IMG/VR virus record: IMGVR_UViG_3300020411_002386
Location: 1 to 51,293 of that record
Source: a virus
Direction: 5' to 3' (one strand)
DNA: 51,293 nucleotides
The notes under the pieces were generated by a model. That model did not search any database. It was given only the letters and a program-made list of their open reading frames with translations, and had not been told where the DNA came from. Both the position numbers and the translations under genes were made by a program. Positions 1 to 40,748 of this stretch are shown here, piece after piece (position 1 is the first letter of the stretch; every line of letters starts with the position of its first letter).

Positions 1-88
1 ATTCTGGCCAAATATCTATAGACTCAACATAATCATTTAACATTAATCGATTATAATCTAATTTAATTGGTATTATTACATCATCCAT
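1..88 (-). CDS. 5' end of an unidentified protein, cut by the window edge
   Basis: An ATG at 88 opens a frame that stays open to the window edge (29 codons, beginning MDDVIIPIKLDYNRL). It overlaps the stop of the SDR-like gene upstream by 8 bases, the same tight packing as the rest of this block, so it is probably the next gene of the operon. Too little is visible to assign a function. Confidence 0.5.
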   Translation of the reverse strand, partial: MDDVIIPIKLDYNRLMLNDYVESIDIWPE

Positions 89-662
89 TCTCTGATGACC
101 TATCGGCTGTTAAAGTTATTTCTTCAATACACATTGGAGATTCTACAATATATTTAATACATTCGGCTACTTCTTCTACTGTTAATTTTTTTTCTTTGGG
201 GTGTAATTTATCAACATAAGGTGTATGCATATGACCTACGCTTATATAAGAACATTTAATACCTGGACTTACATTGGCTCTATTATGATTAATTGTCTGA
301 CATAAATTTTCAAGAGCTACTTTTTCAGCTCTATAACTAATATATTTTATCCAAGGTTGTTCTGTATTAATATGGTCTGTAATACTACCTATACCAATTA
401 AATGTCCAGAACGCCCTGACTCTTGCCAATTAACATATATTTTATGCATCATTCTTGCTTGAACATATGCTAATTTACCAACTAATGTATGAGCATTTAA
501 TATAACACCATCATATAAATCTGTATATTTTACAAATTTATTTTGTGTTTCTTCATCATTAAAATCCCAACCATTAGCTCTACTACAGAAATCACTATCT
601 AAAACTTTTGATATTCCAGATGCTAATCCGGTCTCTGGGTTACCGGTTGTTATAAATTTCAT
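81..662 (-). CDS. Short-chain dehydrogenase/reductase-like protein
   Basis: 193 aa, near the lower limit for the SDR family (about 250 aa). The N-terminus reads TGNPETGLASG (residues 6-16), matching the TGxxxGxG nucleotide-binding loop. VILNAHT (53-59) sits where SDRs have NNAG. Ser93 in GIGSIT and Y110-RAE-K114 match the Ser-Tyr-Lys catalytic set. It is therefore probably an NAD(P)-dependent oxidoreductase, though divergent. Its start overlaps the end of the sulfotransferase-like gene upstream by 23 bases. The substrate cannot be read from the sequence; the setting among nucleotide-sugar and oxygenase genes suggests a biosynthetic or decoration step. Confidence 0.65.
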   Translation of the reverse strand: MKFITTGNPETGLASGISKVLDSDFCSRANGWDFNDEETQNKFVKYTDLYDGVILNAHTLVGKLAYVQARMMHKIYVNWQESGRSGHLIGIGSITDHINTEQPWIKYISYRAEKVALENLCQTINHNRANVSPGIKCSYISVGHMHTPYVDKLHPKEKKLTVEEVAECIKYIVESPMCIEEITLTADRSSENG

Positions 663-1224
663 TTAATTCCTCATAAGTAGTATTTTTATATTCTAAGTCT
701 TCAGCTTTATACGGGCTTCTCTCAGGTGGTATATGATCAATATCCAAATCATAAGTTTTTATTTTATCTAATTGACTTGGATTATAATCTTCATATTCAA
801 TATGATATCTAGATCCCCATGGAAACAATTCAGATTCTAATTCAAGCATTCTGTCCCAATTTTTAATTGTGTCAATAGTTCTTAAATCAACTTCTAATGG
901 GGGAAGCTTTCGATTAGTATATTCGTGATCTTCTCTTATTAATCTTTCTATGGTATGACTTATTAATTGTTTTAATTTATTTTTTCTAGTAACTCTAATA
1001 TACACCCAATTTTCTGGATTGTCAACAACAAAAGGTCCATGAGCATGAATTACAAGAGGTGTTCTAGACATGTATAGGTCTTTCATGTTTTGCATAAAAC
1101 TAAAACCTGAGCTCATAAAAGAATTTCCTATAAAAAAAGGTGTGTAACCTTTTTGAGATAAATCATATGCTATTCTTTGTGTACCGCATCTACCGAAACT
1201 TTTTATCACGACATTCGTTAACAC
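640..1224 (-). CDS. Sulfotransferase-like protein
   Basis: 194 aa. Translation starts at a GTG; an AAAGGAG ribosome-binding site lies 7 bases before it. Residues 9-16 (SFGRCGTQ) resemble the PAPS 5'-phosphosulfate-binding loop of sulfotransferases (SxGRSGTT), and WVYIRVTRKNKLKQLISHT resembles the 3'-phosphate-binding Arg...Ser segment. Together these support a PAPS-dependent sulfotransferase fold, more divergent and shorter than cellular members. An APS-kinase-like gene at 47496-47957 of the same genome could supply PAPS (inference). A generic P-loop protein is the alternative. Confidence 0.5.
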   Translation of the reverse strand: MLTNVVIKSFGRCGTQRIAYDLSQKGYTPFFIGNSFMSSGFSFMQNMKDLYMSRTPLVIHAHGPFVVDNPENWVYIRVTRKNKLKQLISHTIERLIREDHEYTNRKLPPLEVDLRTIDTIKNWDRMLELESELFPWGSRYHIEYEDYNPSQLDKIKTYDLDIDHIPPERSPYKAEDLEYKNTTYEELNEIYNNR

Positions 1225-1927
1225 TTATGAACTCCTTTAAATATTTGTTTTCTTTACCATGTGCATAGTCTAATGCAGGATGTCTATTATACATTACTGG
1301 TATATAATCTGTTCTAGTACTATGTGCTACATGAGTCCAACCGCCTTCTCTACCAACTGCATATTTACAAGTAGCTAGATACATTACATTTTCTCTTATA
1401 CTCATATGAGATCCTAGTTCTATAGGATTATTCCATTCCTTGAGATTTTTATAAATTATTTCACAGTCTATATCATTTATATTTCTATTCATAGTATAGT
1501 CGTGACCATTATATTCTTGTACAGGACCTTGGAAATAAAAACATACAAAATCATTTGTTGCATTGCCATTAAAAGCAGATGGATAATATTCATGTCGTAA
1601 TGTACAAGGAACAGTTTGAATTTGTTCTTCTGTGTAATTAGGTATTTTTAAATCTTTTAAATTTTCTTTCCAAGTCTTTTGTGGGTCTTCATCTAAATGA
1701 ATAGTTGGTCTGCCAACAATATGTACTGGGCCTTTAGGTAAATCAAAGCATTGATATATTTCTACAAATCTATTAAAGTTATAATCATTTAAATGAAGGT
1801 TGATTTCAAGTTCTGTTTCATATTCTTGATTAGTTAATAACCAACTTATATTTTGCCATAATCCTCCAAGTCCCATATTATCATAATTAAAAAACATCAC
1901 TTTATTTTGATTCATAATATTGCTCAT
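1190..1927 (-). CDS. Glycosyltransferase-like protein, function uncertain
   Basis: 245 aa. The early segment NMGLGGLWQNISWLL resembles a glycine-rich donor-site loop. The late segment YLATCKYAVGREGGWTHVAHS resembles the GT9/heptosyltransferase pattern in which a glycine pair is followed by a His near the nucleotide-sugar site. These are weak, family-level resemblances; no exact family is recognised. It overlaps both neighbours (26 bases with the oxygenase-like gene, 35 with the sulfotransferase-like gene). The start is either the ATG at 1927 or the one at 1915, which has a weak GAG upstream. Confidence 0.4.
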   Translation of the reverse strand: MSNIMNQNKVMFFNYDNMGLGGLWQNISWLLTNQEYETELEINLHLNDYNFNRFVEIYQCFDLPKGPVHIVGRPTIHLDEDPQKTWKENLKDLKIPNYTEEQIQTVPCTLRHEYYPSAFNGNATNDFVCFYFQGPVQEYNGHDYTMNRNINDIDCEIIYKNLKEWNNPIELGSHMSIRENVMYLATCKYAVGREGGWTHVAHSTRTDYIPVMYNRHPALDYAHGKENKYLKEFISVNECRDKKFR

Positions 1928-2585
1928 AGTTTTTTGGTAAATTTATTCCTTCAAATCCAACATAGTGTTCATTGTATTTTTTATATGATCTATCTAATAA
2001 ATTCATATAATTTTTATCTTCTAAGTTACTATCCCATGGCGCACCAAAGGCAAGAGTAAATTTAGTATCAGTATGAGTATTCAACATATAGTGTGGCCAT
2101 CTGCCACTCATTATAAATGGTTTATCAATATCAGCTTCTAAATAAACATCGTCTTTATCAGACATGAATACTAAATCATCTACATGACCCTGTAGAACAC
2201 ATCTGAATTTATGTTGTAAGGTATTAAATTTTTTAGGGCTACAATCAATATGTGGTGGATTAGCTTCTCCGGGTAAAGTAGTTATTATCATTATTCTACT
2301 TTTTCCGGTTATTGGAAATAATACATCTTCACACCATTGTATTAATGTTGGAAATTCATTGGCTATTTCAGTCCAGGCATATGGTTCTCTATAAAGATCT
2401 AGATCAGATTTCTTAGCCCTTACATGATCTGTATCATGAAACATTAATGGTACATGCCAGCAATTTCTGAAATCATCTCTAATAATTTTTAAAAAATCTA
2501 CATCATTTAATTTTTCTAAACAATCTAATGGAGGATTTTCCATATCTAATGGTAAGTATAATAATTGTTTTATTTTGTCAAGCAT
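1902..2585 (-). CDS. 2-oxoglutarate/Fe(II) oxygenase-like protein (Asp/Asn hydroxylase type)
   Basis: 227 aa. H112-I-D114 inside NPPHIDCSP, followed by FRCVLQG and H165 in GRWPHYMLN, gives the His-x-Asp...His iron triad of the cupin-type aspartyl/asparaginyl beta-hydroxylase family. The usual C-terminal Arg that binds 2-oxoglutarate is not obvious; Lys175 (THTDTKF) lies near that place. Known relatives hydroxylate protein side chains or small molecules. This is the first of four such genes in 7.5 kb, overlapping the SET gene by 16 bases. The substrate is unknown. Confidence 0.7.
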   Translation of the reverse strand: MLDKIKQLLYLPLDMENPPLDCLEKLNDVDFLKIIRDDFRNCWHVPLMFHDTDHVRAKKSDLDLYREPYAWTEIANEFPTLIQWCEDVLFPITGKSRIMIITTLPGEANPPHIDCSPKKFNTLQHKFRCVLQGHVDDLVFMSDKDDVYLEADIDKPFIMSGRWPHYMLNTHTDTKFTLAFGAPWDSNLEDKNYMNLLDRSYKKYNEHYVGFEGINLPKNYEQYYESK

Positions 2586-3037
2586 TGTTTTTCTTTCTGT
2601 GCATACCAGCTTAATGGTAAATTTAAAAATTTATAATCTTCGCCCGTTACTTTTCCACGACAACTTTTAGTCCCACAATTACATGGATCAATTGGATTCT
2701 TTTTAGTTAACATAAATGTTCCATAATCTATTGTTAAATATTCATGAGCTCTTATATGTCTTAAAGCTCTAAACACTACTTGTCCATCTATATAAACATT
2801 AGGTTCACAGCTATGATTAATATATCCTTGATATTCTTCGCCTTCTGGTAAATCAATAACTAGATCTTTATCTATTAATAAACCTTTATACCATTTATGT
2901 TCTGATAAATGTCTAGCTAAACCACCTACAACAAATACTATATCATCTTTTTCTATTATATCAGTAGTAGTTCTACAAAGCCCGTGAACTTTATGTTTTC
3001 TTACAATTGTATTTTTATTGACGTGGAAAAAATGCAT
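2570..3037 (-). CDS. SET-domain protein lysine methyltransferase
   Basis: 155 aa from the ATG at 3037. The SET signature is complete: NHSCEPN at residues 74-80 (SAM site and pseudoknot), LTIDYG at 101-106 with the catalytic-type Tyr105, then a post-SET-like cysteine cluster C119-x-C121-x4-C126 (PCNCGTKSC). SET proteins transfer a methyl group from S-adenosylmethionine to lysine in proteins; small stand-alone viral examples such as chlorovirus vSET are known. It lies between two 2OG-oxygenase genes, overlapping both, so it is co-translated with them. Targets may be host or virion proteins (inference). The start is set by the first ATG; a GAGG lies 12 bases upstream, further than usual. Confidence 0.85.
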   Translation of the reverse strand: MHFFHVNKNTIVRKHKVHGLCRTTTDIIEKDDIVFVVGGLARHLSEHKWYKGLLIDKDLVIDLPEGEEYQGYINHSCEPNVYIDGQVVFRALRHIRAHEYLTIDYGTFMLTKKNPIDPCNCGTKSCRGKVTGEDYKFLNLPLSWYAQKEKQCLTK

Positions 3038-3779
3038 TGAATTTTGGATCCTCAAAATTAGCCATTACTAAGGCATGATATCTAACTGCTCCTGATTTAT
3101 TATTTACCGCATGATTATGCTGAGTATTAATTATCCATGCTTCATTTAAAGCATAATGTTGAAAGTGATGTTTACCATCCATATAAACAATCATCTCTGT
3201 ATCTTTTGTAGTTATAAGTGGAATATGTAAATAAGCATGAGTATAAATTTCTTCATAATAACAATGACTATGCCAATTAATTCTTTCACTATCATCTACT
3301 TTAGATACCATAATTCTATCACACATATCCCAAGTAACAAATCGTTCTATAATACTTCTAATGTATGGTAATTTTAATTTAGTATCAACTAAATGTTCTG
3401 GGGGAACTCTACCATTTTCTAATAAATGTTTCTTACCTAATACCTCTAAGAAATCTTTAGTTTCACCAAAACCAAAATCAGGATCATCACACCAATTTCT
3501 TAATATCTTCGAAGACCAATAATTACTAGTTCCAGCTCCTCTTACATTTTTAACATCATTATTATATCCACTCCATTGACCATTAAGATTTGATAATTCA
3601 TCTTTAATTTGTTTTTCATTTAAATTTAAATTATCTGCTAAACGATAATGAGGAGTATATAGTAATTCTTTGGCAATAGGATGTATAGCTCTATCAGGCG
3701 AACATCTAGGATTACAAGATGGATCAAAGGCAGGAGCAGATTCTACATTTTGTAATCGATCATGTAATTCGTAAGACAT
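3015..3779 (-). CDS. 2OG/Fe(II) oxygenase-like protein with HxH in place of HxD
   Basis: 254 aa. GGGGAGG eight bases before the ATG at 3779 fixes the start (MSYELHDRLQ). The C-terminal half follows the Asp/Asn hydroxylase-like pattern: INWHSHCYYEEIY...LHIPLIT, then NEAWIINTQHNHAVNN and RYHALV. The first iron motif is H170-S-H172, where the three related proteins in this cluster have His-x-Asp; the distal His is 221 or 223 and the 2-oxoglutarate Arg is 233. The change may alter metal binding or activity. The N-terminal 150 residues match nothing I recognise, apart from a short Cys-rich stretch (SCNPRCSPDR). Confidence 0.65.
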   Translation of the reverse strand: MSYELHDRLQNVESAPAFDPSCNPRCSPDRAIHPIAKELLYTPHYRLADNLNLNEKQIKDELSNLNGQWSGYNNDVKNVRGAGTSNYWSSKILRNWCDDPDFGFGETKDFLEVLGKKHLLENGRVPPEHLVDTKLKLPYIRSIIERFVTWDMCDRIMVSKVDDSERINWHSHCYYEEIYTHAYLHIPLITTKDTEMIVYMDGKHHFQHYALNEAWIINTQHNHAVNNKSGAVRYHALVMANFEDPKFNAFFPRQ

Positions 3780-4254
3780 ATTGATATCCTCCCCAATGAA
3801 GTTTCTCATGGGTTACATTCCAATTAAAACAAGAATGTTTAGCAAAATATTCTAATAATTTTGGACTTTCTTCTCTACTAACCCATATATTTTCATAACC
3901 AAAATTCATAGCTGTTTCTGTTAATTGGTCTAATGTATCTAAACCTCTATTTAGATCTGCCTTCCACCCTCCAAAATTATAATTTCTATCTCGAGTATGT
4001 CTAGACATAACTCTTATAGATCCATCATATTCTGGATGTTCTATTGCTGCACTATAATAAATTAAATACCATTTCTTTTGGTTTTTATAATAAGGTTCAA
4101 AGTCCCAACCTAATCGGGCAAACTTAGTGTATTCAAACCATGGTCTTTTAAAATAATTATCTTGAAGTCTATGACCATAAGTTTTTTCGAAAAGTCTTTT
4201 GACTTCTAATCTATGATCATTAATAGTACAAATTTTGTAAATCGCTCGTTCCAT
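3760..4254 (-). CDS. Unknown protein, possibly GNAT-like
   Basis: 164 aa, Trp- and Tyr-rich (KKWYLIYYSAAIEHPEYDGSIRVMSRHTRDRNYNF, split across two strands of a likely sheet). The plan of a strand pair, an arginine-rich turn, a helix (GLDTLDQLTETAMNFGYENIWV) and a final strand resembles N-acetyltransferases, but no clear acetyl-CoA loop is seen. The protein at 39167-39763 has a loosely similar plan. It is embedded in the oxygenase cluster with overlaps on both sides. There is no clear ribosome-binding site before the ATG at 4254, so translation may depend on coupling. Confidence 0.6.
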   Translation of the reverse strand: MERAIYKICTINDHRLEVKRLFEKTYGHRLQDNYFKRPWFEYTKFARLGWDFEPYYKNQKKWYLIYYSAAIEHPEYDGSIRVMSRHTRDRNYNFGGWKADLNRGLDTLDQLTETAMNFGYENIWVSREESPKLLEYFAKHSCFNWNVTHEKLHWGGYQYVLRIT

Positions 4255-4837
4255 CTAAACTAAACATTAATGCTATTCTGGGTTTATCTGACATATTAAT
4301 TACCGCATGAGGATACCCTATATTCAAGAAATAGGCAACACCATTTTCTAAATTATATGCTTCTAATTTATTATCTCTCCTAAAAAGATTTACAACGTTT
4401 CTATCACCATATATTGGAACAATACATCTTACTGCATATGATATATCATAATCAACATGAAAAGGAATAGTTTTACCTGGAGCAAGTTTTGTTATTCTTA
4501 CTCTACTAGCAGGAGCCGTTAATTGTGTTATTATCTCTTCAAAATAACTTCCCGTGTAATCTTCTGTAGGTATATTATATAAATGCTCTTCTCTGCGCTT
4601 TAAACGCTCTTTAATACTAGCTGTATAAGGTAATATCTCACTTGGAGTAGTTAAATTAATCTGTTCAAAGTTGTCGTATACTTGTTTAACTAATTCCATA
4701 TGATTATCACATAACATAGGATTAGCAGATCTTACATCTACAAATTTTTCTGCTAATAGATCAGTTGACTCTTGTAATCTTTTTAGATCAATATCTAAAT
4801 TAAAATCAGCTAGAGATGGTAAATCGTGTTTTTTCAT
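4220..4837 (-). CDS. 2OG/Fe(II) oxygenase-like protein (Asp/Asn hydroxylase type)
   Basis: 205 aa. All key positions are visible: H127-V-D129 in TIPFHVDYD, H177 in GYPHAVIN and R187 in KPRIAL, spaced as in cupin-type aspartyl/asparaginyl beta-hydroxylases. The N-terminal 100 residues are helical and specific to this protein. The ATG shares ATGA with the stop of the aminotransferase-like gene upstream, so the two are probably translationally coupled. Likely an active dioxygenase; substrate unknown. Confidence 0.75.
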   Translation of the reverse strand: MKKHDLPSLADFNLDIDLKRLQESTDLLAEKFVDVRSANPMLCDNHMELVKQVYDNFEQINLTTPSEILPYTASIKERLKRREEHLYNIPTEDYTGSYFEEIITQLTAPASRVRITKLAPGKTIPFHVDYDISYAVRCIVPIYGDRNVVNLFRRDNKLEAYNLENGVAYFLNIGYPHAVINMSDKPRIALMFSLDGTSDLQNLYY

Positions 4838-5616
4838 TCTCTATATAATTCCTCTATTGCATCTGTTAAACATAATCTTGCAGGGTTATTACCTCTTCTT
4901 TTAATATTATATATTGGATCTTCACTAGTGGCAAGCCATACTGTATCACTAGGAGTTATTTTTAATTCATTACAGAGTTGCTTTTGATATTTTTCTAGTG
5001 TATTATATACAAGGTCAATAGGAAGTTCTATAAGTTTTTCTCCTAAAGACATTGAATAATAATTATAATACTTAGCTGATCTAATTAAAAGTTCAAAGCC
5101 TCTTATTGGTTCTCTGGTCCAGGCCCAACCAATTCTATAATTCCTTACACCAAAACATTTACTTAAACTAAAGAATACCATTTCAACATTATCTGGTATT
5201 TCAAATTTTTTTATTTTAGTAGAAGCAACATATGCTAGGTCTAATATAACAGGTTTATGTGTTGGTATATCATGATAGTTACCATCAATAGAAGAGGGAT
5301 AACTCCAATATATCACATCACCTTCTGGCTTACCTTGAACCCATTGATAGTCACCTTCTCTCATTTCTATGGTTCTTTTTTCCATAAACATCCAATAATT
5401 AAGACCTTCTGTAATACCGTTTAAAGGATATTGATATTCAAAAGGACTTAAATCACAATAAGGTTCTAACCATTCAGTTATTCTATCAGCATTAAAATGA
5501 TTTACTTCATCATGTATTCTTAATGTATGAGCAGAGCAAATTAATTTTATAGGGTTAATTGGAAACCCTCTTATTGCATTACTTCTTTCTATTAGTTGTT
5601 TTGGTGTGATGGTCAT
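4834..5616 (-). CDS. PLP-dependent aminotransferase-like protein (fold type I)
   Basis: 260 aa from the ATG at 5616, placed 7 bases after AAGGA. GITEGL (67-72) fits the phosphate-binding turn, D126-L-A-Y129 fits the Asp and Tyr that contact the pyridine ring, and S150-L-S-K153-CFG-V with R161 fits the internal-aldimine lysine loop of class I/II aminotransferases. At 260 aa it is about 100 residues shorter than normal; the substrate-arginine C-terminal domain seems reduced. Acting as aminotransferase, decarboxylase or another PLP enzyme cannot be separated. The next gene starts on its ATGA, and the desaturase overlaps its start. Confidence 0.7.
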   Translation of the reverse strand: MTITPKQLIERSNAIRGFPINPIKLICSAHTLRIHDEVNHFNADRITEWLEPYCDLSPFEYQYPLNGITEGLNYWMFMEKRTIEMREGDYQWVQGKPEGDVIYWSYPSSIDGNYHDIPTHKPVILDLAYVASTKIKKFEIPDNVEMVFFSLSKCFGVRNYRIGWAWTREPIRGFELLIRSAKYYNYYSMSLGEKLIELPIDLVYNTLEKYQKQLCNELKITPSDTVWLATSEDPIYNIKRRGNNPARLCLTDAIEELYRE

Positions 5617-6151
5617 CGTGATTTCCTTCAAAAGGGGCGAAAATATTTACCCACCATCTATTCACTGGTCCGCTGTCATTATGACCTACAAGGTTTAACA
5701 TTCCATAAAATAGATAGGAAAATATAAACACCATGATTAAATAAAAAATTAATATAGGGTGTATAAAGAACGCAATTATATAAGTGAATACAAAAATTAT
5801 ATAACGATACTCGTGAAAAAATACTACTCTTGGATTATGATATAAATCTTTAACAAATTTTCTTGGTATGTTTTTTACTCTCCAAGTAGAGAATAATATC
5901 TCATGCCATTTTTTATATAATGGACTATGAGGATCATTTGGTGTATCGGGATTAGCATGATGCATTCGATGAACTCCGCACCAAGCAATAGGAGATTGAC
6001 AACCACATAATAGGCCGAGGTATAACATTATTGCTTCTTCAACTTTACCAGTTTTAAATTCCCGGTGAGCAAAGTATCTATGATACCCCATAGTAATTCC
6101 AATAGCAACTATAAAATAATATACAATATAAGATTGTAACAAATGAATCAT
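5579..6151 (-). CDS. Membrane fatty-acid (acyl) desaturase
   Basis: 190 aa. Three histidine boxes bind the di-iron centre: H24-RYFA-H29, H61-RM-H64-H65 and H178-DD-H181-H182, with hydrophobic spans around 5-20, 42-58, 116-136 and 136-155. This is the acyl-CoA/acyl-lipid delta-9 desaturase pattern; such enzymes put a double bond in a fatty acyl chain in the membrane. The protein stops 8 residues after the last box, so it lacks the C-terminal tail of cellular enzymes (about 290 aa). The start at 6151 uses ATGA overlap with the preceding gene. Electron donors would have to come from the host. Confidence 0.88.
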   Translation of the reverse strand: MIHLLQSYIVYYFIVAIGITMGYHRYFAHREFKTGKVEEAIMLYLGLLCGCQSPIAWCGVHRMHHANPDTPNDPHSPLYKKWHEILFSTWRVKNIPRKFVKDLYHNPRVVFFHEYRYIIFVFTYIIAFFIHPILIFYLIMVFIFSYLFYGMLNLVGHNDSGPVNRWWVNIFAPFEGNHDDHHTKTTNRKK

Positions 6152-6534
6152 TGAAGTATTTTGTCTCGTTCCTCTAATAATTCCCATGGCTGTTTACCTG
6201 TATATGGTAAAAACTTACTTCCTGGAAACAATAAACAAGCGGTTAAATCATTAAATAAAACCACTGCACTAAATGTTCCTGTATCTTGATTTACAAAAAG
6301 ACCAAATCTACCTGGATAAGATCTACCACTATTTGCTGCTTGTAAAAATCCAACTCCATCTATTAATAATTCCTCGTCTGCATTTTTAATAGTATCGAAT
6401 AAATCAGATCTTTCGGTACAATGTAACATAGCAAAAAATTTCATAGATTTAGGTGGAGGTTCTTCTGCAATGGCATCTGCACTTTCAAACCATACTGCTA
6501 AAAAAACTATTGTTAAAAATACAAGATTTCTCAT
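6148..6534 (-). CDS. Small exported protein of unknown function
   Basis: 128 aa with a strong AGGAGG site 4 bases before the ATG. The N-terminus (MRNLVFLTIVFLAVWFESADA) is a signal peptide, probably cleaved after the ADA or AIA near residue 21-23. The mature part has two Cys (HCTERSD and TACLLFPG) that could form a disulphide in the periplasm. No family recognised. It shares ATGA with the desaturase. Confidence 0.75.
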   Translation of the reverse strand: MRNLVFLTIVFLAVWFESADAIAEEPPPKSMKFFAMLHCTERSDLFDTIKNADEELLIDGVGFLQAANSGRSYPGRFGLFVNQDTGTFSAVVLFNDLTACLLFPGSKFLPYTGKQPWELLEERDKILQ

Positions 6535-6946: not shown

Positions 6947-7029
6947 TCTTCCATCCACAACCAAATTAAAAGACCTAAAAGAATACCAAATGATATTGGT
7001 AAAATTAAAAAAAAGAATATATTACTCAT
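6943..7029 (-). CDS. Tiny single-span membrane protein (28 aa)
   Basis: ATG at 7029 encodes MSNIFFFLILPISF followed by GILLGLLIWLWMEE, one hydrophobic helix. Its stop shares ATGA with the nucleotidyltransferase start and its ATG overlaps the end of the upstream oxygenase-like gene by 8 bases. That packing argues it is real, but there is no strong ribosome-binding site and it is very short. Confidence 0.45.
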   Translation of the reverse strand: MSNIFFFLILPISFGILLGLLIWLWMEE

Positions 7030-7516
7030 AAATACAGCCTACAATATGAACTCTAACTCCTTTACTAGCATTAAAAGCAGTATGTGGTAAAGTTGTATTT
7101 GTTAAATATATTTTTCCAAGATCTAACATATAAACTTTATCTTGTATTACCATTCGGCAATCAGGAGCAGTTATAAGTGGTATATGAATTCTCTTTGTCA
7201 TATCCGAATGCATAGTATAACATACTTTTGGATGCATAGGCATTATTCTAGACCTAACCATATTATATTTTTCAAATATACGATTAAGTTTAGGAAGATC
7301 CCACAAAGGATATTTAAAATAATTTTCTGGATATTGTAATTTAGATACTCTACCAGCAGAATTAATACATTCTTCTAGTGGATCTAAATCTGGTTTATGA
7401 CCTTGAAGACCTACTTGAGGAATAGTTGCCCATCCTTTTTTAAGAGCAACTTTAACTGTATTCACTTCATTTAATATTTCAGTTAAATTAATTTCTTCTA
7501 AGACTTCAATGTGCAT
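7022..7516 (-). CDS. 2OG/Fe(II) oxygenase-like protein (Asp/Asn hydroxylase type)
   Basis: 164 aa; GGAG six bases before the ATG at 7516 decides the start. H103-S-D105 in YTMHSDMTKRIHIPLIT, H145 in TLPHTAFN and R155 in GVRVHIVG give the full iron and 2-oxoglutarate set. Its catalytic half is close in layout to the HxH protein at 3015-3779 (both have HIPLIT), so these two may be diverged paralogues. It is the first gene after the structured intergenic region at 7530-7680. Confidence 0.75.
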   Translation of the reverse strand: MHIEVLEEINLTEILNEVNTVKVALKKGWATIPQVGLQGHKPDLDPLEECINSAGRVSKLQYPENYFKYPLWDLPKLNRIFEKYNMVRSRIMPMHPKVCYTMHSDMTKRIHIPLITAPDCRMVIQDKVYMLDLGKIYLTNTTLPHTAFNASKGVRVHIVGCIYE

Positions 7517-7529
7517 TATATTCTCCAAG

Positions 7530-8562: not shown

Positions 8563-9579
8563 TTATGGTTTAGCTGCGTCTAAACCTGGAAGATAATCTG
8601 ACATACCTAATAGATCACCAATTGATTTACCAGGAAATATATCAAATTTTCCTGACATAATTGCTAATTCTATTTCTTCAGCTGCCATTCTTACCTCGGC
8701 AGGCATATTAGTATATGGAGCCATTTCAACCATTCCGGTATCCATTCCACCCCAAGTATCTTCAGACTTCCAAGTACCTTCTAATGCCGCCGCTACTCTT
8801 TCAACATAATAAGGACCCCATTGGTCTATAATAGCTGTCAATTGAGTTTCTGGTGCAAATTGAATCATATCAGATGCTTGGCCAAAAGCATAAACACCCT
8901 CTTTAGCGGCAACTTGTAAAGCGGCCGGAGAATCAGTATGCTGTGTTATAATATCAGCGCCTTGTTGAATTAATACAGTAGCAGCGTCTGCTTCTTTACC
9001 CGGATCATACCAAGTATTAACCCAAATAACATCGATATCAAAATCAGGATTTACAGAAGTAGCACCTAACCAAAATGCATTAATACCACGAATAACTTCA
9101 GGAATAGGGAATGAAGCAATGTAGCCTGCTTTGCCTTTTTCACTCATCATACCAGCAATTACTCCCTGTACATATCTTCCTTCATAGAACTTAGAAGAAT
9201 ATACAGCCATATTATCTGCAGTTTTATATCCTGTTGCATGTTCAAATTTTACATCTGGAAAATCTTTTGCAACTTTTAACATTTGCTCCATATATCCAAA
9301 TGATGTAGCAAATATAATATCATGACCAGATAGAGCCATTTGTCTCATAACTCTTTCAGCATCTGGACCTTCTGCAACTGATTCTACATATGTAGTTTCT
9401 ACAGCTTCTCCAAAAGCTTCTTCAACCATTTTACGACCTTGGTCATGCATATATGTCCAACCGTGATCACCTGTTGGCCCAACATAAACAAAGCCAACCT
9501 TTAAGGGGTCGGCCATAGCGGATGTAATTAGAAATAGTGGCATTATTAGGAACGCCAATCCTCTTATGAAAAATTTCAT
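8563..9579 (-). CDS. BMP/PnrA-family periplasmic solute-binding protein
   Basis: 338 aa, full length for the basic membrane protein family (ABC-importer receptors, many binding purine nucleosides). A signal peptide (residues 1-23, ending ITSAMA) precedes KVGFVYVGPTGDHGWTYMHDQGR, the typical N-terminal ligand-loop start. GPDAERVMRQMALSGHDIIF, IPEVIRGINAFWLGA and QQGADIITQHTDSP follow family order. The mature N-terminus has no lipobox Cys, so it is soluble in the periplasm. No permease or ATPase is in the window, so it probably serves a host transporter, like phage PstS proteins. It is flanked by two similar hairpins and has an AAAGGA site before the ATG. Likely host-derived. Confidence 0.9.
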   Translation of the reverse strand: MKFFIRGLAFLIMPLFLITSAMADPLKVGFVYVGPTGDHGWTYMHDQGRKMVEEAFGEAVETTYVESVAEGPDAERVMRQMALSGHDIIFATSFGYMEQMLKVAKDFPDVKFEHATGYKTADNMAVYSSKFYEGRYVQGVIAGMMSEKGKAGYIASFPIPEVIRGINAFWLGATSVNPDFDIDVIWVNTWYDPGKEADAATVLIQQGADIITQHTDSPAALQVAAKEGVYAFGQASDMIQFAPETQLTAIIDQWGPYYVERVAAALEGTWKSEDTWGGMDTGMVEMAPYTNMPAEVRMAAEEIELAIMSGKFDIFPGKSIGDLLGMSDYLPGLDAAKP

Positions 9580-9630
9580 AGGTATCCTTTCCGGGAATTA
9601 AAAGATTAAAATTGTAATTTGAAAAATAAG

Positions 9631-9648
9631 AATGTCCGTGGGGACATT
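9631..9648 (-). repeat. Leader hairpin upstream of the BMP-family gene
   Basis: AATGTCC (9631-9637) and GGACATT (9642-9648) form a perfect 7-bp stem with a 4-base loop within the 120-base gap 9580-9699. A weak -10-like TATAAT lies at 9661-9666 on the minus strand without a good -35. The rest of the gap holds only the hairpin at 9671-9696 and the ribosome-binding site. Confidence 0.5.
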
Positions 9649-9670
9649 AGTATATATCTTATTATACGGT

Positions 9671-9696
9671 AAAGTGGTGACAAAAGCCACCACTTT
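9671..9696 (-). terminator. Hairpin after the Na/Pi transporter gene, probable terminator
   Basis: AAAGTGGTG (9671-9679) pairs with CACCACTTT (9688-9696), a 9-bp stem with loop ACAAAAGC. On the minus strand only three T follow, so termination may be partial; on the plus strand TTTTT follows. The GGTGGCTTTTGTCACC core repeats that of the terminator at 8513-8537. Confidence 0.65.
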
Positions 9697-9699
9697 TTA

Positions 9700-10137
9700 T
9701 TAAAATTTTCCTAAAAATTTTGCTATGTGTCCTACAAAAGGTAATAGTGATAGAGCCATTAATAGATTAACTCCTGTGTGAGCCATAGCTATTCGTAATG
9801 TATCTCCTTTTGGCCAACCATCTGAAACAAAGAAACCTGCTAACCATATAGTCCCTGTTGTACCTATATTAGCTCCTAATACACAAGCGACTGCAGCTGG
9901 TAATGGTAATGCTCCAGATGCTACTAATGCAATAATTGCTGTAGTTGATAAAGATGATGATTGCCATGCGAGGGTCATAATAATTCCACCAAAGAACATA
10001 TAAATTGGATTACCTAAAAACCATTGTAAATGTTCTATGTTGCCCATTTCCTTCATACCACCAGAAAACATTTTAAGTCCAATATAAAAAACCACCAACC
10101 CTATTAGAGCAGTGATAACAGGATTACCTAATTCCAT
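9700..10137 (-). CDS. Half-size Na+/phosphate cotransporter-like protein (NptA/PF02690 type)
   Basis: 145 aa from the ATG at 10137, which has a strong AAGAGGT site. Q59-SSS and GANIGTT (88-94) are the two signature motifs of a single Na/Pi-cotransporter repeat; about four hydrophobic spans (5-25, 44-58, 63-80, 84-102) plus one at 118-135 are seen. Cellular members carry two inverted repeats and are over 300 aa, so this is one repeat and would need to dimerise to transport. Together with the BMP protein it suggests nutrient uptake during infection. It ends the operon synthetase-like/tRNA/pyrF/pyrD/transporter. Confidence 0.85.
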   Translation of the reverse strand: MELGNPVITALIGLVVFYIGLKMFSGGMKEMGNIEHLQWFLGNPIYMFFGGIIMTLAWQSSSLSTTAIIALVASGALPLPAAVACVLGANIGTTGTIWLAGFFVSDGWPKGDTLRIAMAHTGVNLLMALSLLPFVGHIAKFLGKF

Positions 10138-10168
10138 TTTAATTACCTCTTTCCAAAGCTTTTTGTAT

Positions 10169-10876
10169 TTATTTTTCATTCTTTAAATCTACCATGTTAA
10201 TGATTTTAGATATTTTCCATGGTGTAAAACATACAGTTCCTAAACTGAAATGATCTGCACCATAGTCGCGATAGCCTCGAACATCATCTATAGTAGTGAT
10301 GCCTCCACCAGCTATAACTTCTACATGTGGATGTACCTTTTTAATATACTTTAATATTCTTAAGGTATAAGGCATTATTTTTTTACCACTTAAACCCCCT
10401 TGAGGGACGGGTAAAGTATTACTTGCGTGGATTTGTTTAAATCCAGAATCTACAAGAAAATCTATTTCATCGTTCATAAATGTTGGGGGTATTTTGGCAA
10501 TACACCATCTTCTAGGACTTCTTGTAAAACTAGCAAAGCCTGGCCAAACATTAGGCGTAGTATTAGGACAACCTAAATTAATTTCAACATTTGCTTGCTT
10601 GGGAATTTTTCTATATAGTTCATGCCAATCAGACATTTCTATAGCGCTTATACTCATTACATCACGAGGATGTTTTAATCCATATTCAATACCTTGGTTT
10701 TTTAAACCTAGTTTATTAACCCAGCCATCTTTAGTATAACGTAATGTTTTTAAAATTTGTTTGAATCTTCCAGGCCTTGGTTTTAATGTCCAGGTTCCAG
10801 ATACTGAAAGAACATCCCAGCCTGCAGGTCTATTAGATTTTAAATAATTTCCAAAAGGTGCTGCTATAAAAAACAT
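10169..10876 (-). CDS. pyrD: Dihydroorotate dehydrogenase-like protein
   Basis: 235 aa, shorter than cellular PyrD (about 300-340). NLGCPNTTP, IAKIPP, HASNTLPVPQGGLSGKKI and VIAGGGITTIDDVRGYRDYGADHFSLGT are the FMN- and orotate-binding motifs in family order on a TIM barrel. It oxidises dihydroorotate to orotate in UMP synthesis. The shortened N-terminus lacks a membrane-anchor helix, so it resembles soluble class 1 enzymes. It overlaps the end of pyrF by 13 bases, giving two successive late steps of the pathway (the phosphoribosyl step could come from the host or from 36863-37342). Confidence 0.85.
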   Translation of the reverse strand: MFFIAAPFGNYLKSNRPAGWDVLSVSGTWTLKPRPGRFKQILKTLRYTKDGWVNKLGLKNQGIEYGLKHPRDVMSISAIEMSDWHELYRKIPKQANVEINLGCPNTTPNVWPGFASFTRSPRRWCIAKIPPTFMNDEIDFLVDSGFKQIHASNTLPVPQGGLSGKKIMPYTLRILKYIKKVHPHVEVIAGGGITTIDDVRGYRDYGADHFSLGTVCFTPWKISKIINMVDLKNEK

Positions 10877-11466
10877 TCTATTGGGTTATCCTTTAAAGGC
10901 CTTCCTATTACTAAATAATCAGCACCATTAGAAATTGCTTCTTCTGGCGTACTCACTCTTACTTGATCATCATTTGATTCTTTTAATCTTATTCCTGGAC
11001 AAATTCTTTTAAAAGAATGAACCCTATCATAGTAATTAAACAGTGATAAATCTTGAGGAGATAATACCATATTAAATTTATAATATAATAAATTATCACA
11101 TATTCTTTTATATATGTCACTCTGTTTTTCCCAATTACCAGGAAAAGAAGTTAAATGAGAAACAATAGCAATATTAATATCATTTTTTAAAGGAGATATA
11201 TGCTCTATACATTTTTCACCATTTTCGAAATGTATAGTAGTCATATAAACATTTTGTTTAATTAACCATTTAATAACGGTTTCAACTGTATTTGGAATAT
11301 CATATAATTTCAAATCAACAAATACTTTATAGTCTTTAAACTCATATAAATTAGGTAATAAAGTATGATTGATCTTTACACCATATATTTTATCTTTTAT
11401 TGGTTCTAAAAATTCGATAGCTTTATCGATTTCCATACCATCTAATGCAGCAAAAATTTTATTCAT
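10864..11466 (-). CDS. pyrF: Orotidine 5'-phosphate decarboxylase
   Basis: 200 aa, close to the bacterial norm of about 230. VDLKLYDIPNTV contains the catalytic Asp-Lys-x-x-Asp set, and CPGIRLKESNDDQVRVSTPEEAISNGADYLVIGRPL holds the phosphate-binding end of the barrel. It converts OMP to UMP. Its ATG is 14 bases after the encoded CCA of the tRNA, so the tRNA must be cut out of a polycistronic mRNA, or the gene has weak independent translation. It is transcribed from the late promoter at 12452-12459 as far as can be seen. Confidence 0.92.
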   Translation of the reverse strand: MNKIFAALDGMEIDKAIEFLEPIKDKIYGVKINHTLLPNLYEFKDYKVFVDLKLYDIPNTVETVIKWLIKQNVYMTTIHFENGEKCIEHISPLKNDINIAIVSHLTSFPGNWEKQSDIYKRICDNLLYYKFNMVLSPQDLSLFNYYDRVHSFKRICPGIRLKESNDDQVRVSTPEEAISNGADYLVIGRPLKDNPIECFL

Positions 11467-11576: not shown

Positions 11577-12428
11577 TCAATACGGATGCATTGGGTCTAT
11601 CTGTTGTTCTTTATTATCTAGGGCACTAATTAATCTTGTTAATCCTATTCCTCCACCGACTCGTGGAAAAAAGTTTAAGCCCAAGAAATCTTCTAATTCT
11701 TTTTCTACTCTATCTTTTCCGAATAGATCAAATAATAAATTAGCATACTCTCCGTTTGTAATAGTATGAAATGTATTTCTCATTTGTTCTACATCACATG
11801 ATCTTTCTGCTGATCCTATTGTTTCCATCCCACCTAATATAACATCAATCTTTTTACTATGAACACCGTTTTCATATCTACTCATATTCCAAAACGGTGA
11901 TGTGAATTCAGGAAAATCTGTTATCATAGTTGTACCGAATTCTTCATGCATTCTGTTTTCATGTTCTGCTTCTAGTTCAGCATTAGCATCTAATTCGAAA
12001 TGTCTTTGCCAAGCTTCATAAGTTCTTTCTTCTGGAGAATCAAATCCCATCCATTGAACTAATTCATATTCCATTCTTTTAAGATCATCTATTGTACCTG
12101 GCATTTCAAATTCAAACATTGGAAAGATTATATCATGTCTTCCAGGAATGGCATTTGGTTCTTGTCTATACGAAGTTGAGACACAAAAAAAACCCGGAGT
12201 GTCGGGCTTAGTGAGTAATTCGTGTTCTAACCACATTTGTCCTGTTTGAGGCAATGGCCAGACTTCGTTGGCGTACTTATATGTTGCAACATTGAATGGG
12301 TCTTCGCATGCTGCTAATATACTTAATCTGTTTTGTGTATGAACTTCTAGAAACCCTTTGCCCAAAAAAAAGGACCTGAGAAGGTCCGTGGCGTTTGTAA
12401 ATTTCTGTGGATCAATTAGCTGTGTCAT
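11577..12428 (-). CDS. Minimal class IIb aminoacyl-tRNA synthetase-like protein (AsnRS/AspRS type, no anticodon domain)
   Basis: 283 aa. Class II motifs are in order: GFLEVHTQ (25-32, motif 1 region), S86-YRQE-90 with R97-HD and FPMFEFE (103-109) as motif 2, and G258-GGIGLTR-265 as motif 3; PLPQTGQMWLEHELL fits the amino-acid site. The motif 2 and 3 arginines are present, so ATP chemistry should work. The N-terminal OB-fold anticodon-binding domain (about 100 aa) is absent. Similar free cores exist as archaeal AsnRS-related asparagine synthetases and as EpmA. The neighbouring odd Asn-anticodon tRNA suggests a matched pair, or amide synthesis. It has an AAAGGAAA site and a late promoter inside a dyad. 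Confidence 0.82.
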   Translation of the reverse strand: MTQLIDPQKFTNATDLLRSFFLGKGFLEVHTQNRLSILAACEDPFNVATYKYANEVWPLPQTGQMWLEHELLTKPDTPGFFCVSTSYRQEPNAIPGRHDIIFPMFEFEMPGTIDDLKRMEYELVQWMGFDSPEERTYEAWQRHFELDANAELEAEHENRMHEEFGTTMITDFPEFTSPFWNMSRYENGVHSKKIDVILGGMETIGSAERSCDVEQMRNTFHTITNGEYANLLFDLFGKDRVEKELEDFLGLNFFPRVGGGIGLTRLISALDNKEQQIDPMHPY

Positions 12429-21873: not shown

Positions 21874-22043
21874 TATATACTCCAATTTTCAATTTGTATT
21901 TTTAATTCATTAATTCTTTCTTCTAATACACTTACTGTAGTTCGAAGATGTCCTGTATCTTCTGGCGTATACCTACTTCTTAATAAAGCAACTTCACGCA
22001 TTAATACATCTCTATATTCTAATATTTCTTTTATTGTTTCCAC
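21873..22043 (-). CDS. Small coiled-coil protein (56 aa)
   Basis: GTG at 22043 (overlapping the TAG of the AsnB-like gene; AGGA upstream) encodes VETIKEILEYRDVLMREVAL and on to LEERINELKIQIENWSI, a two-helix coiled coil with a RYTPEDTGHL linker. The stop overlaps the next ATG. A similar short protein is, from memory, common in cyanophage genomes. Coding packing on both sides argues strongly that it is real. Confidence 0.8.
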   Translation of the reverse strand: METIKEILEYRDVLMREVALLRSRYTPEDTGHLRTTVSVLEERINELKIQIENWSI

Positions 22044-22681
22044 TATTTTTTCCTATAGGATTTATTATTATTTTGTAATACTTCAAAGTTAATCTTTTTG
22101 GGTGTATATGGTAATCCCACATCTTTTATATACATTCCAAAAGCTTTTTTATATTTTAACTTATATTCAGGATCAAGGCAACCTAATTCTTTTACTATAT
22201 TAACATTTAATAATGGTGACCGCATATTTATTTTATGAAATGAATATGCTTGATCCGAAAATGTTAAAAAATCTACCATGCGACGAATGTTATTGGTATA
22301 ATATTCATCAGCACCTATACCACTTAATAATATTGGAGAACAATGCTTTGCTAGAAAATAATGACCTGTGGCTATTCCAATGCCGGTTTCTTTACCTAAT
22401 GAATATCCAGCTCTTGTCATTTCTTCTTGGATATTATTAATATCTTTTTGACTATAAGGACCTATTACAGAAGCTTTTTGTTTAAGAAATTTATGCCTTG
22501 CTTTTAAAATATCTAAATCTTCATTTCCAGTCATAGATACTATTTTAAATTTTTTATTTAACTTATGTAATGCCGCGGCAATTACTCCGCTATCTGTTCC
22601 ACTACTCAAAGATACTGTAGTTAAACCAGGTACATACCATTCTTCAACGGCATTTGTTATAGCATCGAAAAAATTTTTCAT
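22043..22681 (-). CDS. AsnB-like ATP-pyrophosphatase domain without a glutaminase domain
   Basis: 212 aa from the ATG at 22681. SLSSGTDSGVIAAAL (24-38) matches the AsnB/beta-lactam synthetase PP-loop (SGGxDS), and SGIGADEYY matches the second AsnB signature. AsnB itself is about 550 aa with an N-terminal Gln-amidotransferase domain, absent here. It could use free ammonia or another amine on an adenylated carboxylate. ATGA joint with the oxygenase upstream suggests they act on one pathway. A role in altering the deazaguanine base or in asparagine supply is speculative. Confidence 0.75.
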   Translation of the reverse strand: MKNFFDAITNAVEEWYVPGLTTVSLSSGTDSGVIAAALHKLNKKFKIVSMTGNEDLDILKARHKFLKQKASVIGPYSQKDINNIQEEMTRAGYSLGKETGIGIATGHYFLAKHCSPILLSGIGADEYYTNNIRRMVDFLTFSDQAYSFHKINMRSPLLNVNIVKELGCLDPEYKLKYKKAFGMYIKDVGLPYTPKKINFEVLQNNNKSYRKK

Positions 22682-23271
22682 TTTGTAATTGTCCATTCCG
22701 GTAATACTGCCTCTCTAGGTACTAGCCAGGTTACAAGAACCCGACGGAAACCCCTTTTTATTTTTGTTACGCCGTGTACCACACTTGCGTTATAAATTAT
22801 TGTTTCACCAACTTTAAGTGGTATTTTATGTTGATTAGCATGATCATTCGGATCAAAAGAGTTATTTTCTTTAATTGTAGGATCCCCATCTGATACATTA
22901 GCTTCTTGTATAATTACATCGCCTCCGACTAAATCTTCTTCTTCGACAAGTGTTACAAAACTCATACCACCAACAACTGAATGGCCATCGATGTGTAGTG
23001 CAGCTTCTCCTCCTGGATGATATTCAAGTAAGAAGACATTCTTTAATCTCCATTCTTGTTTAGTAAAAGCTGTTGCCCAATCTATTTTTTTCTTGATAAA
23101 AGATTCAACATACTTTTTGATAACTGGATCTTCGTGTTTAAAAATATTACTAATACGTTGCCAAGTACCTTTCACAGTTTCTAAATCACTATCAAATATT
23201 TCTTTGAGATATTTAATCTCAGGTTCATCAAATAGCCGTTTTACATATACCTGATTAAGACTTGATTTCAT
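22678..23271 (-). CDS. 2OG/Fe(II) oxygenase, prolyl-hydroxylase (PKHD) type
   Basis: 197 aa. YHPGGEAALHIDGHS (H93-x-D95), GGDVIIQ, GETIIYNASVVHGVTKIKRGFRRVLVTW (H166, R176) is the full 2OG-FeII_Oxy pattern. Such genes are frequent in marine T4-like phages. Distinct in fold layout from the four Asp/Asn-hydroxylase-like genes at the left end. It overlaps queE upstream (stop of queE at 23271) and the AsnB-like gene downstream. Confidence 0.88.
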   Translation of the reverse strand: MKSSLNQVYVKRLFDEPEIKYLKEIFDSDLETVKGTWQRISNIFKHEDPVIKKYVESFIKKKIDWATAFTKQEWRLKNVFLLEYHPGGEAALHIDGHSVVGGMSFVTLVEEEDLVGGDVIIQEANVSDGDPTIKENNSFDPNDHANQHKIPLKVGETIIYNASVVHGVTKIKRGFRRVLVTWLVPREAVLPEWTITK

Positions 23272-24212
23272 TAGGTACCAATCGCATTACCAAATAAGTA
23301 ACAATGCAATCTACCAGAAACATTATAGCCTCTTTCAAAAGCGATCTTAGCTACTTCCCCCGCTCCTCGTTCTTGTTCTTCTACTGTAGCTCCAACAGGC
23401 ATAATGTATACAGGCCAATTTATTTTTTCAGCTCTGAACATAGCAAGAACTTCTTCCATCTCTTCCCATTGTTCTTTATGAGGACCCATTACAAATTTTA
23501 ATTGTCCAATATGACTATCAGAGTTCTTATTAGCGTTAAGACCTACTAAATTATAATCTGCAACTGTCTTAGGTTGAATAGCTTTTTCTCTTTTCTCTCC
23601 AGCCACAGACCATAACTTAGGAGATACAGAAAAGAAAACAGGAGCCTGCCATACACCATTATTCATTACACTATTTTTAAAATCATCTGTTAATTCTTGT
23701 GTTCCATTAGTTTCAAATGTTATACGAGCTGGCCGTTTATTACTATGTCCTCTCATTTCCTCATTAATTTCTACGACAGCTTGTTGAGCATGTTTCATTA
23801 AAGGTTCACCACCTGTATAACAAAGATGAGCTCTTTGTCCCGATACAGGATGTACAAAACCACCTTCTGGATTACTTTCCGTTTTAGTAGTTTCAAATAT
23901 CTGTTGATATATTTCTTTAGCTGTTTTATGTCCCATTAAATGTCTAAACTTCTTAGACCATGTATAAGAACTATCACATCCCTTTTCCCATACAGGAAGA
24001 TCTTCAACTCTATTAACAGTTTTAGGATCAAAGTCTTGATAAGGTAATTCCCAAGTATCTGGTTTAGTAGGATGATCTTGTCCAAAGCCATCACATTGTA
24101 AATTACATAAAAAGAATCTTAACCAGAATGTATGCACTCCAGTATATAATCCTTCACCTTGTATAGAATTAAATATTTCTGAATAAAAATATTTTTTTTC
24201 TTTCTTCTCCAT
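23271..24212 (-). CDS. queE: 7-carboxy-7-deazaguanine synthase QueE with split iron-sulfur motif
   Basis: 313 aa, about 90 longer than many QueE. NSIQGEGLYTGVHTFWLRFFLCNLQCDGFG is the radical-SAM start, CYTGGEPLM the SAM-binding GGEP, FETNGTQ and VSPKL follow. The usual CxxxCxxC is broken: C36-x3-C40, then about 38 inserted residues before C79 in GCDSSYTW, which looks like the displaced third cysteine. It rearranges carboxy-tetrahydropterin to CDG, the substrate of QueC. Confidence 0.9.
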   Translation of the reverse strand: MEKKEKKYFYSEIFNSIQGEGLYTGVHTFWLRFFLCNLQCDGFGQDHPTKPDTWELPYQDFDPKTVNRVEDLPVWEKGCDSSYTWSKKFRHLMGHKTAKEIYQQIFETTKTESNPEGGFVHPVSGQRAHLCYTGGEPLMKHAQQAVVEINEEMRGHSNKRPARITFETNGTQELTDDFKNSVMNNGVWQAPVFFSVSPKLWSVAGEKREKAIQPKTVADYNLVGLNANKNSDSHIGQLKFVMGPHKEQWEEMEEVLAMFRAEKINWPVYIMPVGATVEEQERGAGEVAKIAFERGYNVSGRLHCYLFGNAIGT

Positions 24213-39166: not shown

Positions 39167-39763
39167 CTATACTTTATGAAAGTTTAATACAAATGAATGA
39201 TCCATTATATGGTTTCTAGGTATTAGATCATGATAATGAACATTAGATAGAAATCCTTTTATCTTAATTCCATTCACTGAATACATCATTAAGTTTAATC
39301 TATTTAGTTGACGTCTTTGTCTCCATTTTATCTCTTTTGCACCATTAGCATCTACATGACGTGTAAAAAACATAATACTAATACCCTCTTTAGCTAATAT
39401 AGGGTTTAAACAATGTTCATATGCCCAATGTTCTGTTTTCCAAAATTGAGATAGTAATGGTTGCTTTTCTCTATTTAGGTTATATGCTCTTAATTTTCTT
39501 ATAACATGTGGTGCTACTTGAGGACATTTTTTAAGATAATATCCATACCAAGGTTTATTATCTTTTAAATATAATACATTATAATCTCTTTGATATGCTC
39601 TCATATATTCATAATGATATGGATTGTCATCCAGGCTCTGAGGCTGTCTATCTTTTGTTTCATGATGTGTCAGCCATAACCATTCATCGATTAAATCATC
39701 GTCATGGTCATCTGTAATATAAAATTTTACATTATCTTGATCTGTATCAAGCAGTTGCTTCAA
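39167..39763 (-). CDS. Unknown protein in the halogenase cluster
   Basis: 198 aa; TTG start at 39763 with AAGGA nine bases upstream, inside the end of the ligase gene. His-, Trp- and Tyr-rich, with NVLYLKDNKPWYGYYLKKCPQ and a C-terminal HYHDLIPRNHIMDHSFVLNF. The layout is loosely like the GNAT-like protein at 3760-4254. It may be an acyltransferase using the product of the ligase (speculative). Confidence 0.6.
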   Translation of the reverse strand: MKQLLDTDQDNVKFYITDDHDDDLIDEWLWLTHHETKDRQPQSLDDNPYHYEYMRAYQRDYNVLYLKDNKPWYGYYLKKCPQVAPHVIRKLRAYNLNREKQPLLSQFWKTEHWAYEHCLNPILAKEGISIMFFTRHVDANGAKEIKWRQRRQLNRLNLMMYSVNGIKIKGFLSNVHYHDLIPRNHIMDHSFVLNFHKV

Positions 39764-40748
39764 AGCTTTGATTCCTTTTTACCTTACGTAGATTATCATC
39801 AATTTTAATTTCATTAACTTTTATAGGATCTATTTCATAAGCGCATTTATGAGTTTTTGAAAATTCTTTTATATTCATGTCACCAGTATAATATAATACA
39901 CAGCGACTAGCCACCTTTCTACATAATGCCAAATCTGCTCCTGTTTCTGTAGCTACTTTTTCTATTTGTTCAGGATAAACTCTATCACCACAGTTTTCCA
40001 TTTTAAACATATTATGCTTACGACCAGCAAAAAAGAATTCACCATCGTCAGTATATTCTATTAGATCACCACTATGCCAATAATCACTTTGCCCTTTCCA
40101 TTTACATGCCCATTCAATAGTACCGTCATCATGATTAATATTTTTATAATCTATTTGTGGATGTATATTATTAAAGTGATAGATATCTTGTTTTTCAGTA
40201 CTCATAATAATTGGAGGGACTTCAGTGCTACCATATGCAGTTGTTACCTTTTGCGCTCCTTTTGCTCTGAGGTCTTCCATAAGTCCATTAGGAGTTACAT
40301 CACTACCAACTTGCATATGTTTAAGATTACTTAAATCTAAAGATTTCCATTTTTTATGTCTATGCCATGTTTTCCAAACATTAGGAAGTATTAACGTATA
40401 AGTTGGATTAATTTCTTTTATTTTATCTGGATAATTTGCTGCCGATGTTTCATAAAAAACATCACAATTAGTCACTGCACCTAGATATAAACTCATACTA
40501 GTAAAGCCAATACCTCTAGGATTATATAATGCTAATATAGTACTATTAGATGATAGATCTAGATACTCAGCATTATACTCAGCTATTGATCGCATTAACT
40601 TAGCATCGTGTACATATTTTTTAGGTTCACCTGTAGTACCACTAGTACTTACAGTTATATTCCAATCATTTAAATAATTTATTATTGCGGATCGAACTAT
40701 ATCATTATTACTTTCAAGATACTCAATACCGTCAATATAGATTTTCAT
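39747..40748 (-). CDS. ANL-superfamily adenylate-forming ligase, N-terminally reduced
   Basis: 333 aa. STSGTTGEPKK (34-44) is the ATP loop, TAYGSTEVPP the A5 motif, YWHSGDLIEYTDDGEFFFAGRKHNMFKM covers A7-A8, and LRKVKRNQ the end (A10-like Lys). Full acyl-CoA ligases or NRPS A-domains have about 130 more residues before the ATP loop; here it starts 33 residues before it. Likely activates a carboxylic acid as acyl-AMP. Overlaps the halogenase by 17 bases, so the two are probably one pathway. Confidence 0.85.
   Translation of the reverse strand: MKIYIDGIEYLESNNDIVRSAIINYLNDWNITVSTSGTTGEPKKYVHDAKLMRSIAEYNAEYLDLSSNSTILALYNPRGIGFTSMSLYLGAVTNCDVFYETSAANYPDKIKEINPTYTLILPNVWKTWHRHKKWKSLDLSNLKHMQVGSDVTPNGLMEDLRAKGAQKVTTAYGSTEVPPIIMSTEKQDIYHFNNIHPQIDYKNINHDDGTIEWACKWKGQSDYWHSGDLIEYTDDGEFFFAGRKHNMFKMENCGDRVYPEQIEKVATETGADLALCRKVASRCVLYYTGDMNIKEFSKTHKCAYEIDPIKVNEIKIDDNLRKVKRNQSFEATA

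Follow-up and report, generated by a model that had tools for sequence, protein, structure and literature searches.

The histone-lysine methyltransferases MLL, ASH1L, and NSD carry the catalytic residues of the SET fold together with a post-SET zinc cluster. SET proteins have also been reported in published bacterial surveys (PMC3980110), and one set from Actinomycetota (e.g., L020 to L028 and L089 to L098), which RefSeq names "SET domain-containing protein-lysine N-methyltransferase," combines NHSC[DE]PN, DY, and CxCx4C motifs with a 16-residue hairpin and a CRGxVTGxD[WY] tail motif (here, VTGxDW-tail SETs). BurB/MSMT, a SET enzyme able to methylate a free amino acid, couples the SET fold, post-SET zinc cysteines, and a catalytic-site Tyr with a reduced SET-I region and a biosynthetic gene context (PMC12542666).

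The window analyzed here is a 51,293-nucleotide IMG/VR virus fragment (IMGVR_UViG_3300020411_002386) with T4-like replication genes, and its DNA polymerase shares 55% identity with that of Phage C48C1. It encodes a 155-amino-acid SET protein with the motifs, hairpin length, and tail motif of the VTGxDW-tail SETs, although overall identity to these is 25 to 30% and SET-I spans 34 residues in the phage protein versus 40 to 48 in the bacterial ones. The protein has the same catalytic residues and zinc cluster as MLL, ASH1L, and NSD, its best solved-structure matches, but its SET-I and hairpin are shorter, it carries no pre-SET, AWS, or other domains, and it belongs to a bacterial virus without histone. 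Compared with BurB, it keeps the catalytic Asn that BurB has lost, has neither the LDM nor the TED motif, and does not conserve the BurB ligand-contact residues.

The cultured Pelagibacter (SAR11) phage Mosig EXVC030M resembles the window in having a desaturase, an aminotransferase, and a relative of the window 2OG oxygenase gene 15 in an operon-like block. The Mosig block also holds a TauD oxygenase, a class I methyltransferase, and a GNAT gene and lies beside annotated tail-fiber genes; it differs from the window in the TauD and class I methyltransferase genes and in having no gene annotated as SET. What is new in the window is the setting, namely, a SET clade tied to one 2OG oxygenase inside a conserved phage tailoring cassette.

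Conserved features of the SET protein

The SET gene is a genuine ORF under purifying selection, with dN/dS of 0.05 to 0.17 between homologs, and its product matched the Pfam SET profile with 38.2 bits (E value, 2e−9; cutoff, 22.4). N74, H75, S76, C77, P79, N80, D104, Y105, C119, C121, and C126 were invariant across six phage homologs and invariant or near-invariant among 41 diverse SETs. Within NHSCEPN, every position except the E was invariant in the six homologs, and the N, H, and C were invariant in the 41 SETs. The sequence-only reading of a phage SET-domain methyltransferase with intact NHSCEPN, DYG, and CxCx4C motifs thus held up, as did retention of its Tyr/Asn motif in homologs.

AlphaFold predicted a SET fold with a pLDDT of 79 from a 41-row alignment, compared with a pLDDT of 32 from the six close homologs only. 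Against solved SET structures (VIA), the model gave Z scores of 12.2 for ASH1L, 11.7 for MLL1, and 10.9 for BurB. Because of the selection on the gene and this structural match, the ORF and its motifs are not attributable to chance. A significant profile match, NHxC and DY conserved in homologs, and the predicted fold place the product in the SET superfamily. Canonical features of protein-lysine methyltransferases were kept as well (N74, Y105, and the post-SET zinc residues C77, C119, C121, and C126). SET-I comprised 34 residues, compared with 46 in MLL1 and 28 in BurB, and the hairpin after it 16 residues, compared with 23 and 17, respectively.

In the clade of the window, the position of the SAM-binding GxG motif reads HGLC, with an invariant Cys in place of the second G. 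This replacement would fit an inactive SET-fold protein that serves as a zinc-bound scaffold or binds the 2OG oxygenase encoded by the overlapping gene 3, and the fixed one-to-one pairing with gene 3 described below would suit such a complex. However, the remaining catalytic residues were all invariant, and two related phage clades (B and C) retain GxG in similar cassettes, making loss of activity quite improbable. Judged by its residues and its model, the product is predicted to be an intact-looking, working SAM-dependent SET methyltransferase, and it enters the preferred reading below as such.

Occurrence and phylogeny of SET proteins

Close homologs were identified in nine viral contigs (66 to 89% identity to the window SET), which together with the window make up the ten-contig clade A. 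At least 45 SET relatives were present in viral contigs, many of them within very large contigs. Among the bacterial genomes sampled, SET was present in 19 of 198 Actinomycetota and 11 of 96 Patescibacteria (about 10%), and bacterial plasmids also bear SET. The window SET protein had no match in a tblastn search over 50,697 annotated phages, and a single-sequence genome scan found nothing. A weak tblastn lead (E value, 8) led to a true SET protein in the cultured Synechococcus phage RN05-S (Pfam 3e−13, 50.5 bits), and the same match was found in S-B05, S-B43, and RB11-B. The RN05-S gene (L015:1969-2343) adjoins baseplate wedge gene 25, is annotated only as "methyltransferase" or hypothetical, and differs from the window gene in having no post-SET cluster. 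Among the papers searched in full text, none mentioned SET proteins of cyanophages or listed SET among phage auxiliary genes. A SET protein in a phage is less strange than the sequence-only reading supposed, as bacteria and cultured cyanophages have SET too, and its description of these proteins as mainly eukaryotic does not fit the genome counts or the published bacterial surveys.

A tree was built from 64 SETs. Phage groups A, B (L041 to L043), and C (L044 and L045) formed one clade (support, 100/98), which sat with the bacterial VTGxDW-tail SETs (98/95). BurB relatives made up their own clade (100/99), and neither the cyanophage SET nor those from very large contigs fell within the phage clade. 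AU tests did not reject trees in which the phage clade was joined to the BurB relatives (P = 0.22), the cyanophage SET (P = 0.11), or the large-contig SETs (P = 0.20), so that the separate position of the cyanophage SET is not significant. Kinship with the large-contig SETs was considered and set aside on their separate clade, despite the AU result. Nothing supported recent acquisition from a eukaryote, as read from a tree without eukaryotic SETs. The suggestion of chromatin silencing like that by viral vSET also found no support, the phage clade grouping with bacterial SETs in a tree that did not contain chlorovirus vSET.

BurB was examined as a solved-structure match, and its signature residues rule against membership. 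The phage protein could in principle be a BurB-like methionine S-methyltransferase yielding S-methylmethionine for dimethylsulfoniopropionate (DMSP)-type chemistry, given the common SET fold (rmsd of 2.7 over 120 residues), the marine setting, and the nearby aminotransferase. However, in BurB and its relatives (L016, L108, and L109) the catalytic Asn is replaced by L, A, or T, SET-I has 28 residues, and LDM and TED motifs are present, none of which applies to the phage clade, and the BurB relatives form a separate clade, although the AU test did not reject their joining with the phages. A methionine S-methyltransferase is therefore highly improbable, and BurB is an analogy rather than a family member because its signature is missing from the phage SET.

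The BurB relatives have settings of their own. In Eleftheria terrae (L016), a bur-like setting places a PKS, TauD, an aminotransferase, and an aldehyde dehydrogenase alongside the BurB-like SET gene, and in Sphingomonas paeninsulae (L109), also bur-like, the SET gene adjoins a PLP decarboxylase. On Rhizobium plasmid p7 (L108:3952-5864), the BurB-related SET gene overlaps an asparagine-synthase-related gene and is followed by a SAM decarboxylase, an arrangement that echoes phage clade B.

A conserved tailoring cassette around the SET gene

By neighbor-ORF clustering, each of the ten clade A loci contained gene 3, SET, and the SDR-like gene 4. In most of them, gene 3 lay directly before SET and overlapped it; in L029 and L030, it was farther upstream, at a distance of two or three genes. 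When gene 3 was used to scan the viral collection, nine loci matched, and these were the same nine contigs that make up clade A together with the window, so in that collection it never occurred apart from SET. A PDB search with this partner oxygenase found no relative, and no constant substrate-protein gene was found alongside SET across loci.

Table 1 Features of the SET locus in the window and of mini-SET proteins in other contigs; the family names given for genes 4, 14, 16, and 22 and for the 194- and 227-aa proteins are weak or assigned by eye
Feature	Position	Strand	Evidence or remark
SET-domain SAM methyltransferase, predicted, 155 aa	2570..3037	-	ATG at 3037, stop at 2570; Pfam SET 38.2 bits; AlphaFold SET fold; dN/dS about 0.1
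HGLCR, position of SAM-binding GxG motif	2972..2986	-	Alignments of six phage homologs and 41 diverse SETs
NHSCEPN, catalytic and SAM motif, residues 74-80	2798..2818	-	Alignments; C77 doubles as first zinc ligand
DYG, catalytic Tyr motif, residues 104-106	2720..2728	-	Alignment; Y105 equivalent to Tyr124 of BurB
Post-SET CxCx4C zinc cluster CNCGTKSC, residues 119-126	2660..2683	-	Alignments; C119, C121, C126
Partner 2OG-Fe(II) oxygenase, gene 3, Asp/Asn beta-hydroxylase family	3015..3809	-	PF05118 25.3 bits; overlaps SET gene
227-aa protein after SET	1902..2585	-	2OG-like by motif only; no Pfam match; relatives in other cassettes
245-aa protein, gene 22	1190..1927	-	Conserved beside SET in six loci
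194-aa protein	640..1224	-	Sulfotransferase-like by eye only; no Pfam or PHROG match
Short SDR-like protein, gene 4	81..662	-	adh_short 17.8 bits, under cutoff of 26.6; in 10/10 clade A loci
164-aa protein, gene 16, conserved unit	3760..4254	-	No family match
2OG oxygenase, gene 15, conserved unit	4220..4837	-	PF05118 26.9 bits; 71% identity to Mosig protein
PLP aminotransferase-like, gene 14, conserved unit	4834..5631	-	47% identity to Mosig "putative aminotransferase"
Membrane desaturase, gene 13, conserved unit	5579..6187	-	PF00487 31.6 bits
Small 2OG oxygenase, gene 2	7022..7528	-	PF05118 39.8 bits
Mini-SET protein (89-98 aa)	L153:14064-14333
Mini-SET protein (89-98 aa)	L159:11779-12075
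Mini-SET protein (89-98 aa)	L168:13330-13599

Upstream of SET, genes 13 to 16 formed a unit (desaturase, aminotransferase, 2OG oxygenase, and 164-aa protein) in the window and in L002 to L005, and the unit likewise preceded the clade C SETs (L044 to L046), which are 27 to 32% identical to the window SET. In clade B, the SET gene overlaps one of QueC/Asn-synthase type and lies opposite an aminotransferase gene and radical SAM genes, and extra radical SAM, nitroreductase, and further oxygenase genes were found in L029, L030, L039, and L040. Relatives of gene 14, which match Aminotran_1_2 close to its cutoff, were found in at least 91 viral contigs, in neighborhoods with many genes of the 2OG, radical SAM, TauD, GNAT, and nitroreductase types.

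Eighty of these aminotransferase loci were kept, with gene presence scored inside 6- to 7-kb flanks, so that a gene counted as absent may sit farther away. Gene 15 was present in 69, a gene-13-like desaturase in 55, a Mosig-like class I methylase in 34, and SET in 11. The SET and the methylase never occurred together, the latter being present in 0 of 11 SET loci versus 34 of the 69 others. After dereplication by aminotransferase identity, the exclusion gave P values of 0.021 (at 100%), 0.034 (at 90%, with 7 SET and 19 class I methylase cassettes and none with both), and 0.29 (at 70%); because of the last value, mutual exclusion is suggestive but not proven. Near the same aminotransferase cassette, three further lineages (L153, L159, and L168) encode a mini-SET without the post-SET cysteines.

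Candidate substrates of the phage SET

Because the SET gene sits in a conserved block of chemical-tailoring genes, its product probably decorates some molecule or protein in the course of infection rather than silencing chromatin. The reading favored here, tentatively and at slightly less than an even chance, is that a working SAM-dependent SET methyltransferase carries out an exchangeable step in a tailoring cassette borne by phages and N-methylates an amine made or hydroxylated by that cassette. SAM would sit in the SET pocket, and an amine-bearing amino acid or side chain would enter the channel past Tyr105 and be N-methylated. The aminotransferase would probably supply this amine, or the 2OG partner with the overlapping gene would hydroxylate it, and the phage may use the product in infection, with virion or cell-surface components as candidate sites of decoration, and not as a chromatin mark. 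This reading is preferred since the company of the SET gene points to amino-acid and small-molecule chemistry. The short SET-I and hairpin argue mildly for a smaller substrate; short SET-I regions are known in protein methyltransferases too, vSET being about equally small. Evidence against a cassette amine includes the lysine-methyltransferase catalytic Asn kept in the phage SET and lost in BurB; the histone-lysine methyltransferases as top sequence and structure matches, though all SETs score alike; and the loss of significance of the SET-methylase exclusion at 70% dereplication.

Methylation of a protein lysine, marking a tail fiber, ribosomal, nucleoid, or other protein of phage or host that the PF05118 neighbors would also hydroxylate, is almost as likely as tailoring of a cassette amine, and by itself a serious though less than even prospect. 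Every canonical lysine-methyltransferase residue is kept, including Asn74, Tyr105, and the post-SET zinc site; MLL1, ASH1L, and NSD are the best matches; PF05118 takes its name from a protein hydroxylase family; and the Mosig cassette adjoins annotated tail-fiber genes. However, much of the peptide groove is formed by SET-I and the hairpin, and these fall short of their MLL1 counterparts by 12 and 7 residues, respectively; the aminotransferase, desaturase, and SDR-like neighbors fit small molecules better than proteins; and the SET has no constant companion substrate-protein gene. Of the "lysine methyltransferase" proposed by the sequence-only reading, the catalytic Asn and Tyr and the zinc site stood; lysine as the target is unproven, as BurB shows that a SET can act on small molecules (PMC12542666) and the neighborhood is of a tailoring type. 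None of the large proteins next to the cassette received a tail annotation from PHROGs, and a fiber-like N-terminal pattern was seen in just 5 of 80 cassette loci; tail-fiber decoration is therefore a lead that derives from the Mosig annotation.

Within the cassette-amine reading, it is possible, if on balance doubtful, that the methylation step in marine T4-like phages, including SAR11-phage relatives, is filled by either a SET (class V) or a Rossmann (class I) enzyme, with the SET acting on an amino acid that is hydroxylated and either free or carrier-bound. If true, it would be the first SET enzyme of a phage to act on a non-protein amine. SET is usually seen as a chromatin modifier, and the phage cassette offers a second setting, besides BurB, in which its chemistry may serve non-histone ends. 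The cassette also points to a widespread, undescribed marine phage pathway, given the number of viral contigs with its aminotransferase.

Other metabolic genes were identified elsewhere in the window. A PnrA-like ABC substrate-binding protein and a Na/Pi cotransporter-family protein (8563 to 10179) are followed by adjacent homologs of dihydroorotate dehydrogenase and OMP decarboxylase (10169 to 11466), which correspond to late steps of de novo pyrimidine synthesis, and by a class II tRNA-synthetase-like catalytic core with no obvious anticodon domain (11577 to 12428). Between 17649 and 24876 lie 7-deazaguanine genes for QueC, GTP cyclohydrolase I, and a QueD-like PTPS, together with a QueE-like ORF with no Pfam match (23271 to 24212), a possible sign of DNA modification. 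An Asn_synthase-domain protein is encoded at 22043 to 22696. At 39747 to 42417, a member of the tryptophan-halogenase family (Pfam, 280 bits) and, directly after it, an AMP-binding ligase-like protein form another natural-product-like pair.
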